A program made the position numbers and the translations under genes. The notes under the pieces were generated by a model. The model saw only the letters and a program-made list of their open reading frames with translations. It searched no databases and was not told the DNA's origin. A stretch of 59,543 bases of DNA from Pirellulales bacterium (GTDB taxonomy: Bacteria; Planctomycetota; Planctomycetia; Pirellulales; Lacipirellulaceae), in assembly GCA_022448265.1 (NCBI GenBank), contig JAKVCC010000008.1, positions 142,787-202,329 of the forward strand. Reading direction: 5' to 3'. Of the stretch, positions 40,902 through 46,689 are shown one piece after another. How positions within the stretch are numbered: position 1 is the stretch's first letter; each line of letters begins with the position of its first letter.

Positions 40902-43367
40902 GTGTCCATTCCCCTTCCCCCGATTGCCCGTAGCCCCCAAGGCCCCGCCCACGTGGAACAGCGTCGCATAGTTGCATTTATTTCGCTCTCGTTCCTTGTA
41001 CTCGTGCTCCACAGCATGTTGTTTGCGCCCAAGCACCAACCACGCAAACAACTGGCACCCGCCGGCGGTGACCAGCAGGCCGAAGTCCAAGACCAAGCTG
41101 ATGTTTTGGCTGCTGCGGGAAACGTTGCCCAAGGCGACGGAGTGTCAGATCAGGCCGAGGAAGGACCTGTAGCGGGTGCGGGTGACGACGTTCCGCCCGG
41201 CGACCTGGCGCCACCTGATTCGGTTGACTTGGAATACATCACGCTGGGCTCGGTGGCGGAAGACTCCCCATTTCGACTGCTGGCTACCTTGACCAATGCC
41301 GGCGCGGGTGTCCGACGCATCGAATTGGCCAGTGATCGTTTCCGCGATCTACATGATCGGGGCGGGTATCTCGGAAACTTGGAATTGATGGCCGACAGCA
41401 CCGCCGGGCTGCTCGTCGGGGCCGTCGGCACCGGCACGCCTGCTGCGGCCGCGAACCTTCAGGTCGGCGACCGCCTGCTTTCAGCTGTGCATGCAGGCAA
41501 GAGGACCGTCCTGTCCGCACCCCCAGACCTCGCGCAGCTTCTTTCGCAGTCGAAGCCCGGTAAGCAACTCGCACTCGAAGTAATCCGCGGAGGCAGCCCG
41601 CTGGGAGAACTCGTCGTCACGCTCGCGCGACGACCGCTCGAAGTGATACGTCCGGAATCAGAAAACGTGATGATGCGAGCCGGAAAAATACCGCCCGACT
41701 TACCTGCGCCGCCATCGTTTCAATTTACGCTAGAGCGTGCCGGCAAGAGCAATCTGAGCAAACTAGAGAGAGCGAGGAAAGAACAAAGGCGAAGAGATGG
41801 GCTACCGTTTGATCCTAATCTCAAGGAACTTGAACTAGCTGGCGTGGAGCTACGTGACGCGAATTGGGAAATTCAGCAACGCAGCGACACCTCGGTCACG
41901 TTTCGTCAGATTGTGCCACGTTACGCTCTCGAAGTGACCAAACGTTTTTCTCTGGCTGAGGTTCCAGTCGACTCCCTGCAGGACAGGGAGTACCCAGGCT
42001 ACGGCCTTCAGGTCGACTTAAAAATCCGAAACGTCGGCACCAGCGAAACGGACGTCGCCTATCGGCTCGACGGTCCCAACGGCCTACCGCTGGAGGGATG
42101 GTGGTATGCCAATAAGATTGGTCGTAGTTGGTCGGCGGCGGGAATTCGCGATATCGTTGCGCGACATGTCGGGAATGAAACCGTCCAGTTTGGACCCGCG
42201 GCAGTGGCCACCGGAGATGCCGAGCCAATGCAGGGGGGCCCGCTTGTGTACGCCGGAGTCGACGCCCAATACTTCTCGGCGGTGCTCTTGCCAAAAAAAG
42301 AGAACCTCGAACAGGTGTGGATCGACGAAACCCGCTCGGTATTGATTGGGCCGAATCCAAAGCGTCCGGCCGAAAGGCGCTACTGCAATGCAACCTGCCG
42401 GCTCATCACCCATGCCCACTCCCTGAAGGCCGGACAAACACTCCAACATTCTTACGATATCTTCACTGGCCCCAAGCGGCCCGACTTGTTGGCCCGGTAT
42501 CAGGCGAGCGGAAGCCCACAGCATACGCTTGGTGATCTGATGTATTACGGTTGGTTTGGCTCCGTCGCCAAAGCGATGCTCGGCATCCTGCATTTCTTTT
42601 ACGACATCATTGGCAATTATGGCATCGCCATCATCATGCTGACGGTGCTTGTCCGTAGCTGCATGTTCCCCATCAGCCGCAAGCAGGCCCAGAGCATGGC
42701 CAAGATGCAAGAGCTTCGTCCGGAAATGGACAAACTCAAGGAAAAGTACAAAGGCGATGCCCAGAAGCAATCGCAGGCCATGCAGGAGCTTTATCGCAAA
42801 CATCAGATCAACCCGCTGGCCGGCTGCCTGCCCATGTTTATCCAGTTGCCGATTTTCCTGGGACTGTATCGCGCACTGATGGTCGACGTTGAGCTGCGCC
42901 AAGCGCCCCTGTTAGGCAACGCGATTCGTTGGTGCTCCAATCTGGCCGCTCCCGACATGCTTTTCGATTGGTCGAGTATCGTGCCCAACTTCATCGCCCA
43001 CGGTACCGGTATGTTTGCGCTCGGTCCTTATTTGAATGTGCTGCCCCTGGTAACAGTCGGTCTCTTTTTGCTGCAGCAAACTATGTTCATGCCCGAGGCC
43101 GCCAACGAGCAAGCGGCGCTGCAGCAAAAGATAATGAAATACATGATGCTCTTTATGGGGCTGCTGTTCTTCAAAGTGGCCAGCGGGCTCTGCTTGTACT
43201 TTATTGCCTCCAGCCTTTGGGGCATTGCCGAGCGCAAGATGCTCCCCAAACCGGACGCCGCGTCTGCCACCTCAGCAAAAACCCCCATCAGCAAACCGCC
43301 ACCGCGAAGCAGCAAAAACGGCCAGGCAAAGAACAACCGCTCGAATCGCGCCAAGAAAAAAAAATAA
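40902..43367 (+). CDS. yidC: Membrane protein insertase YidC with inserted PDZ-like domain
   Basis: Inner-membrane insertase of the Oxa1/YidC family. 821 residues from the GTG at 40902; a second GTG at 40953 (AAGG ten bases before) would give a more normal beginning (EQRRIVAFISLSFLVLVL). An N-terminal helix is followed by a large periplasmic part. Residues about 168-243 read as a PDZ-like domain (GLLVGAVGTGTPAAAANLQVG, DRLLSAV, LALEVIRGG), which is not part of the usual YidC. The C-terminal 60KD_IMP core begins near 550 with IAIIMLTVLVRSCMFPI, carrying the conserved Arg, and ends with basic KPPPRSSKNGQAKN. Upstream of mnmE by 18 bases. Confidence 0.93.
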   Translation: MSIPLPPIARSPQGPAHVEQRRIVAFISLSFLVLVLHSMLFAPKHQPRKQLAPAGGDQQAEVQDQADVLAAAGNVAQGDGVSDQAEEGPVAGAGDDVPPGDLAPPDSVDLEYITLGSVAEDSPFRLLATLTNAGAGVRRIELASDRFRDLHDRGGYLGNLELMADSTAGLLVGAVGTGTPAAAANLQVGDRLLSAVHAGKRTVLSAPPDLAQLLSQSKPGKQLALEVIRGGSPLGELVVTLARRPLEVIRPESENVMMRAGKIPPDLPAPPSFQFTLERAGKSNLSKLERARKEQRRRDGLPFDPNLKELELAGVELRDANWEIQQRSDTSVTFRQIVPRYALEVTKRFSLAEVPVDSLQDREYPGYGLQVDLKIRNVGTSETDVAYRLDGPNGLPLEGWWYANKIGRSWSAAGIRDIVARHVGNETVQFGPAAVATGDAEPMQGGPLVYAGVDAQYFSAVLLPKKENLEQVWIDETRSVLIGPNPKRPAERRYCNATCRLITHAHSLKAGQTLQHSYDIFTGPKRPDLLARYQASGSPQHTLGDLMYYGWFGSVAKAMLGILHFFYDIIGNYGIAIIMLTVLVRSCMFPISRKQAQSMAKMQELRPEMDKLKEKYKGDAQKQSQAMQELYRKHQINPLAGCLPMFIQLPIFLGLYRALMVDVELRQAPLLGNAIRWCSNLAAPDMLFDWSSIVPNFIAHGTGMFALGPYLNVLPLVTVGLFLLQQTMFMPEAANEQAALQQKIMKYMMLFMGLLFFKVASGLCLYFIASSLWGIAERKMLPKPDAASATSAKTPISKPPPRSSKNGQAKNNRSNRAKKKK

Positions 43368-45000: not shown

Positions 45001-46689
45001 TTGGGTATTTACCCGCCTGCGCTCCCCAGAGATTGGCCGATGCAGTTTCCGCCGCCCGTCGCCCGCCGTTACCCTTGGCGACGTTTCCCAGTCTCCGCCC
45101 AATCTTGGCTACAACCCAAGCGGGTTGTTTTTCTCGCGGCTGCAGTAGCAGTTTTTTTCGCCACGTTACCAACCCATTTCACAGCGGGCGCCGAAGAGAA
45201 CTTGTGGCTGGATGTGGCCCGCGCTTCGGTCACAGCAGACGAACTCCTGCGACACGTGGGCGTGCTGGCCGACGACATATTCGAAGGTCGGGAAACAGGT
45301 TCCCGAGGTGGTCGGGCCGCGGCGAAGTATATTGCCGAAAAATTGAAGGAAGCCGGACTGCAGCCCGCAGGCCCCAACCAGACTTTTGTCCAACCCTTTT
45401 CTGGCAACTCGCAGAACTTGCTTGCCCTGTTGCCTGGAAAGGATCCGGATGTGCAAGGCGAGACTCTAATCATTGGGGCCCATTACGACCATGTCGGCTA
45501 CGGCACGCGCCGCAACAGCTACGGACCGCGAGGCTATATCCACAATGGCGCCGACGACAACGCCAGTGGAGTGGCCGCACTCCTGGAAGTCATTGATGCG
45601 GTCATGCAAACCGGATACCAGCCACGGCGCAGCATGCTGTTCGCCTTTTGGGACGGCGAGGAAAAAGGACTTTTAGGTTCTAAGCATTGGGTCAGCTCTC
45701 CAACGGTTTCGCTGAAGGACGTGCGGCTGGCACTAAATATCGACATGGTGGGGCGGCTGGACGGGGGACGGATTGAAGTAGGAGGCACCCGCACAGGCCG
45801 CGGACTCCGCCACCTGATGAGTTCGCCTCAACTGAGCGAAACAACCTGGCTCGACTTTAGCTGGGAATACAAGGAAAATGGCGATCATTGGACCTTCTTT
45901 CAGGCCGGTGTCCCGTCGCTCTATGTCCACACTGGCTTGCACGACGACTACCACCGGCCGTCGGATGATGTAGAAAAACTAAACATTGAAGGCATGCGCG
46001 AAGTCACCCAGTACCTAGTTGAGCAAATTTGCGAGCTGGCCGATGCTGAGCAGCTGCCCGATTTCCGCAGCGAGGCTACATTGGACACCCCACAAACACG
46101 CCGTCGGCAAGAGAAGACTTTACCTGCTCTGTCGCCACGGCTTGGTTTCGACTGGAAAATACTTTCGGGAAAAAACACCGGACCAAGCGTGAAACGAGTC
46201 CATCGACAGAGTGCAGCAGGCCGGGCTGGACTGAAGCGGGGTGACCGCATCGTTTCGGCCGACAACTTGCCGTGCACCGAACCGTGGCTCCTGCCGGCGA
46301 TAGCCCTGACAAGTCCTGCCGAGCTAACTCTGGAAATAGAACGGGCCGGAACCGACATGCCACTAGCACTCGTGATTCCACTCCAGGGCGCACCTATCCG
46401 GCTTGGCCTATCGTGGCGCGAGGATCCGGCCGAACACCAATCGGTTTACGTAACCCGGGTAGTACCGTACTCTGCGGCCGCACGGGCCGGCATCAAGTTG
46501 CACGACCGCATCTGCGCCCTCGATCGAGAATCGATTAACGGATCCAATGATCTCCTCGTGCGTATGCAAGCTCTCCTGGCAGAGGGCAGGGACAACATCG
46601 TTCTGAAAATTGAATCGCGAGGCGCTTTGCGTGAGGTGATGGTCCCGCTGGGCGCCTTCGAAACGAGTCGCCCGGACGCGACACTCTGA
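45001..46689 (+). CDS. M28 family metallopeptidase with two PDZ domains
   Basis: An exported zinc aminopeptidase of 562 residues (ATG at 45001, or 45040). An N-terminal hydrophobic segment lies near 42-60 (VVFLAAAVAVFFATLP). The M28 domain has the di-zinc set: His161 in HYDHVGYG, Asp186 in ADDNASG, Glu220/221 in GEEKG, Asp248 in NIDMVG and a late His in HDDYHRPSDD. Two PDZ domains follow (about 390-460 and 475-545), with RAGLKRGDRIV and RAGIKLHDRI. Peptidase-PDZ fusions of this type are seen in planctomycetes and acidobacteria. It should act in the periplasm or membrane on small peptides. It stands alone after mnmE. Confidence 0.9.
   Translation: MGIYPPALPRDWPMQFPPPVARRYPWRRFPVSAQSWLQPKRVVFLAAAVAVFFATLPTHFTAGAEENLWLDVARASVTADELLRHVGVLADDIFEGRETGSRGGRAAAKYIAEKLKEAGLQPAGPNQTFVQPFSGNSQNLLALLPGKDPDVQGETLIIGAHYDHVGYGTRRNSYGPRGYIHNGADDNASGVAALLEVIDAVMQTGYQPRRSMLFAFWDGEEKGLLGSKHWVSSPTVSLKDVRLALNIDMVGRLDGGRIEVGGTRTGRGLRHLMSSPQLSETTWLDFSWEYKENGDHWTFFQAGVPSLYVHTGLHDDYHRPSDDVEKLNIEGMREVTQYLVEQICELADAEQLPDFRSEATLDTPQTRRRQEKTLPALSPRLGFDWKILSGKNTGPSVKRVHRQSAAGRAGLKRGDRIVSADNLPCTEPWLLPAIALTSPAELTLEIERAGTDMPLALVIPLQGAPIRLGLSWREDPAEHQSVYVTRVVPYSAAARAGIKLHDRICALDRESINGSNDLLVRMQALLAEGRDNIVLKIESRGALREVMVPLGAFETSRPDATL

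Follow-up and report, generated by a model that had tools for sequence, protein, structure and literature searches.

A YidC insertase with a predicted HtrA-type PDZ domain nested in its periplasmic domain in Pirellulales

Among the core factors of membrane protein biogenesis is YidC, whose periplasmic P1 domain has no settled role. According to PMC7618853, P1 of Escherichia coli YidC contacts SecD and SecF and probably emerging chains as well; one portion of the domain binds SecF, and P1 tolerates a large deletion. In excerpts of PMC8545111, the PDZ domain of DegS and AlgW is presented as a reader of the C-termini of misplaced outer-membrane proteins. In this work, we describe a protein in which these two elements appear to be combined. 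It is encoded by the yidC gene in a stretch of 59,543 nucleotides (hereafter the window) from a Pirellulales bacterium (assembly GCA_022448265.1, contig JAKVCC010000008.1, positions 142,787 to 202,329 of the forward strand), and residues 136-229 of its product are strongly supported as a PDZ domain by sequence profiles, predicted fold, and conservation. By analogy with DegS and AlgW, a PDZ domain on YidC would provide a tail-binding site at the same exit as P1.

A description of a PDZ-bearing YidC was not found in open-access full texts; subscription journals, most supplements, and database pages of domain architectures lay outside that search. The catalogue of microbial PDZ architectures by Muley and Galande (2019; PMC6411480), in the parts consulted, includes planctomycetes and reports them to be rich in PDZ proteins. 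A term search found YidC neither among the 12 named PDZ families of that catalogue nor in the accessible main text, its supplement being outside the scope of the search, and the 7% of proteins left unclassified there are a group in which a PDZ-YidC could sit (PMC6411480). Such a protein bears on how PDZ-rich planctomycetes organize envelope biogenesis. In an order whose P1 carries a peptide-binding module, the ligand of the PDZ would also reveal partners of YidC on the periplasmic side.

The assignment to the PDZ family comes first from sequence profiles. In Pfam, PDZ_2 is matched at residues 148-215 with E 5.9e-6 and 26.9 bits when the whole protein is searched, slightly below the cut-off of 27, and with E 4.2e-7 and 30.6 bits, above the cut-off, when the segment is searched alone; the same family is matched at E<=1e-3 in 70/70 segments (the window and 69 further loci). 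A search of the PDB with a profile of the segment returned 227 distinct sequences at E<=1e-3, with DegQ, DegP, and other HtrA proteases as the best matches; the 60 that were listed are HtrA-type proteases, bacterial and human, plus the zinc metalloprotease AQ_1964.

Structure prediction gives the same picture. An AlphaFold model of the segment has a predicted local distance difference test score (pLDDT) of 92.6 and a predicted template modeling score (pTM) of 0.81, and in a full-length model computed from 76 alignment rows (mean pLDDT 88.0, pTM 0.84) the PDZ blocks score 93-98. The top four Foldseek matches are Helicobacter pylori HtrA, DegS with peptide, MucD, and AlgW. With a second structural aligner, the top rows are DegS structures with bound C-terminal peptides of the outer-membrane-protein type (Z 13.8, root-mean-square deviation (rmsd) 1.1-1.2 Å, 85-88 residues), and other HtrA proteases follow at most 1 Z behind, which amounts to a tie. 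Within the full-length model, residues 136-229 superpose on DegS 255-353 with Z 14.9. The domain thus shares its fold and order of elements with the PDZ domains of DegS, DegP, and DegQ, and its carboxylate loop aligns with those of DegS and DegQ. It differs from them in that it is nested within another domain, whereas theirs follow a protease, in that a polar residue usually follows the loop, and in that the YidC protein has no protease domain; no protease family, trypsin-like or other, occurs among the Pfam matches of the window protein up to E 10. The PDZ fold proposed in the initial annotation is therefore confirmed by a confident model with HtrA-type matches, but its boundaries are not: the domain starts earlier than was noted, because the loop G138-Y-L-G141 is part of it.

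The modest Pfam score of the single sequence could suggest an artefact, such as a misread frame, an assembly chimera, or a chance similarity. Against this, the model is confident, the frame holding yidC is open across 821 codons, and 52 genomes of the order and 80 named contigs, two partly overlapping sets, share this insert at an identical site. The alignment with relatives of 56-67% identity continues across the insert, so a misread frame, the doubt attached to the original observation, is ruled out, and we give an artefact of any kind practically no credence. The start site is uncertain: GTG 40953 is favored by relatives, and GTG 40902 is an alternative. The segments quoted in the initial annotation are present, with GLLVGAVGTGTPAAAANLQVG beginning at residue 152 from GTG 40953 and at residue 169 from GTG 40902, and the range given there for the domain, 168-243, agrees with the longer start. 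Numbered from GTG 40953, the gene and its protein are laid out as follows.

40953..43367, + strand: yidC, 804 amino acids, its periplasmic domain interrupted by a PDZ (Pfam)
40956..41024, + strand: N-terminal transmembrane helix, residues 2-24, a helix in the model
41031..41216, + strand: disordered linker rich in Ala, Gln, Asp, and Pro, residues 27-88
41223..41357, + strand: first part of the P1 beta-sandwich, before the insert, residues 91-135, aligned to E. coli YidC
41358..41639, + strand: predicted PDZ domain of HtrA/DegS type, residues 136-229 (Pfam, PDB profile, models, fold matches)
41364..41375, + strand: predicted carboxylate-binding loop G138-Y139-L140-G141 (alignment with DegS 257-260, conservation)
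41640..42557, + strand: remainder of the P1 beta-sandwich, residues 230-535 (YidC_periplas match at 427-542; match to 3blc with Z 21.5 over model residues 91-533)
42618..43238, + strand: conserved insertase core 60KD_IMP, residues 556-762 (Pfam E 3.9e-50)
43275..43364, + strand: Lys/Arg-rich C-terminal tail, residues 775-804, with low pLDDT

Apart from the insert, the protein resembles the YidC of E. coli, a member of the Oxa1/YidC/Alb3 family of the Gram-negative type. The core family is PF02096, and the periplasmic domain, PF14849, is matched with 26.5 bits against a cut-off of 24. Residues 91-533 match the E. coli P1 beta-sandwich 3blc with an rmsd of 3.1 over 252 aligned residues, and the insertase core matches 3wvf (Z 21.7, rmsd 4.1, 436 residues). 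Since the window gene is the only YidC match in its genome at E<=0.001, and given this homology, insertase activity is predicted for the product of what is, in this Pirellulales bacterium, the housekeeping yidC. The linker before P1 has pLDDT <50 at residues 27-31, 33-70, and 73-78 of the full-length model and shows the highest mean column entropy among the compared segments.

To locate the insertion site, the window protein and 11 other members of the order were aligned with the E. coli protein and with YidCs from elsewhere in the phylum, 7 of them from a different order of the same class and 12 from outside the class. Strands on either side of the insert align, and the PDZ occupies a gap at a loop corresponding to about residues 93-96 of E. 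coli YidC, so that about 94 residues stand here in place of a short loop. In the model, the insert lies between a strand ending at residue 125 and one starting at residue 230, and the sandwich strands 95-99, 109-114, and 119-125 come before it. The initial annotation had placed the domain between the first helix and the beta-sandwich, which is incorrect, as three strands of the sandwich precede it and it sits inside a sandwich loop.

The distribution of this architecture was surveyed across the phylum Planctomycetota, with order and class taken from kinship labels; the order was named as Pirellulales through relatives that carry the insert, for example Bythopirellula and Botrimarina. The PDZ is present in 52/52 YidCs of the order with a readable N-terminal half (37 in one alignment, one partial gene from genome G005, and then 2 and 12 more). 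In the order sample of 39 genomes, the gene of G013 breaks off ahead of the insert, and no YidC match was obtained in G020, which is 66% complete; loci L030 and L032 are the same gene and were counted once. The PDZ was found in none of the 33 YidCs read from the rest of the class (7, 18, and 8, from 61 genomes, 28 of which were not read), and in none of the 83 read from the rest of the phylum (from 131 genomes with a match, 48 of them not read, while 6 of all 137 had no match; three of the 83, L050, L097, and L106, may be incomplete at the 5' end). These proteins share the flanking strands and the insertase core, but not the PDZ. For the YidCs outside the order, 25 of 29 matched families were listed, the remaining four being single members with E above 0.088. 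The early remark that standard YidC lacks such a domain thus holds for E. coli and for the 116 YidCs read outside the order.

A profile of the domain separates the two groups without overlap, from 76.9 bits for the lowest member of the order with a whole PDZ to 9.3 bits for the highest outsider; outsider scores up to that value may stem from the short YidC flanks contained in the profile. It matches all 80 named contigs, two of them, cut at the 5' end, with only 39.5 and 43.9 bits. These contigs are the best 80 of at least 568 confirmed places in a scan confined to the order, and 69 of the 80 loci went into the profile together with the window, so that the scores of these loci arise by construction, whereas the Pfam counts are independent. 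The 70 rows of the profile alignment omit 6 of the 76 rows used elsewhere (L189, L193, L195, L198, L200, and L210), mostly near copies, and the 76-row alignment leaves out five of the 80 contigs, cut at the 5' end. Within this phylum's sampling, the PDZ-bearing YidC is confined to one order.

Among the 76 order members, mean pairwise identity is 0.40 for the PDZ, 0.40 for the sandwich, and 0.63 for the insertase core. Distances between the PDZ domains correlate with distances in the remainder of the protein (Spearman 0.47 and 0.52, against a permuted maximum of 0.18 in 500), and the domain has therefore been inherited with the gene. The simplest account would be that the ancestor of Pirellulales gained the domain once and its descendants retained it. 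Three contigs titled 'Candidatus Kuenenia stuttgartiensis' (L180, L184, and L189) also carry a PDZ-YidC of the Pirellulales type; these bins are probably misnamed. Separately, an EF-hand family is matched (best E 6.3e-6) by one of 18 YidCs of the class outside the order (L281-L298), which might mean that another lineage acquired an insertion of a different type.

The predicted function of the domain depends mainly on its loop. Residues G138-Y-L-G141 align with G257-Y258-I259-G260 of DegS, which we take to be the place of the carboxylate-binding loop and the residues that carry this role. The loop has a mean entropy of 0.42 bits, compared with 2.15 for residues 148-229; G141 is kept in 76/76 members, G138 in 75, and Y139 in 69, and the motif G-[YF]-[LIMV]-G is found in 69/76. 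In HtrA proteins, the carboxylate loop motif is described as ligand-binding (PMC11642142, consulted in part). On the strength of this conservation and the fold, we slightly favor a working PDZ domain that binds C-terminal peptides through the conserved loop and holds the tails of partners or clients at the periplasmic exit of YidC. The domain would serve there as a docking point, which could keep a tail near the insertase, whether it belongs to a periplasmic partner or to clients that have just been exported or inserted.

Several observations weigh against such binding. The hydrophobic residue expected directly after the loop is found in just 10/76 members, Arg or Lys occurs 2-7 residues before G141 in 54/76, and the strand after the loop (142-147), at 2.53 bits, varies more than the domain does on average. 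Outside the loop, the G-T-P-A turn at residues 161-164 is conserved even more strongly than the loop itself, so folding may account for some of the constraint; a recheck of this turn lowered our confidence in tail binding by a small step. Ligand binding by the PDZ seems likely from the sequences, and its specificity may be unusual. The alternative is a structural insert that binds no free C-terminus and instead stabilizes the periplasmic domain, acts as a spacer in it, or makes contact away from the groove with SecDF or a different protein. In its favor, the residue after the loop is seldom hydrophobic, the putative ligand-pairing strand varies, and conservation peaks in the G-T-P-A turn and not in the loop. 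The tolerance of E. coli P1 to a large deletion, and the binding of part of it to SecF, point in the same direction (PMC7618853, in part). Packing alone, however, would not obviously need three loop residues conserved to this degree, and we regard a purely structural insert as possible but unlikely.

Candidate ligands were sought among proteins of the order. The C-termini of SecG, AtpE, and HflC are presumably periplasmic, and no ligand emerged from these three candidates, a result that again tells against tail binding and favors a structural insert. SecG was matched in 22/27 genomes, and, Ala and Pro apart, 0/22 of its tails end in a hydrophobic residue. AtpE, with 28 loci in 26/27 genomes (two gave no reading and one was the wrong protein), yielded 25 tails without a uniform end; they are of two kinds, mixed even within the genus. 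HflC was rejected as an order-wide partner, being matched in 9/23 genomes (6 above the cut-off, the window's own genome included). SecF is present in 23/23 genomes, with the best match inside a frame of >1000 codons in 20, and was set aside because its C-terminus presumably lies in the cytoplasm. The SecG proteins of the order (L229-L250) have long hydrophilic tails after the second helix, many of them rich in Asp, Glu, Ser, and Ala. The initial annotation had suggested that the domain recruits periplasmic chaperones, proteases, or client C-termini; retention of the carboxylate-binding loop keeps this plausible, although these candidates supplied no matching ligand.

The groove could also be occupied from within. 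If it took a segment of YidC or of the holotranslocon, the PDZ might act as an internal regulator that gates the hydrophobic cleft of P1, and its placement in a loop of the sandwich would suit such a role. The C-terminus of YidC itself, by contrast, is a basic tail after the last helix, which is expected to lie in the cytoplasm. In DegS, the PDZ is both an inhibitory element and the binding site of activating peptides (PMC8545111, in part). We consider internal regulation improbable, more so than a structural insert.

If tail binding at the exit is the function, the PDZ of Pirellulales YidC might go further and act as a reader of C-termini, which would capture or inspect tails emerging into the periplasm and pass them to folding or degradation, as a checkpoint at the insertase. 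This extension of the docking model is speculative, and we put it forward with considerable doubt.

The surroundings of the gene look like housekeeping genes. Upstream of yidC lie a TsaB-like gene and a metallophosphoesterase gene, and downstream are mnmE and a gene for an M28 peptidase; mnmE directly follows yidC in E. coli as well. Within 5 kb of yidC in the 80 named contigs of relatives, many of which are short, the metallophosphoesterase is found in 65, the TsaB-like gene in 56, and mnmE in 54. The M28-family peptidase, two genes downstream of yidC (45001-46689, + strand), has PDZ domains of its own and resembles the architecture of the Zn-dependent exopeptidases of Muley and Galande (PMC6411480, in part). 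As a donor of the YidC domain it was rejected, since its best domain reaches 15 bits with the YidC-PDZ profile and the best paralogue in the genome reaches 52. That paralogue is a frame of 756 amino acids with two PDZ stretches, matched at contig C3:137341-137859.
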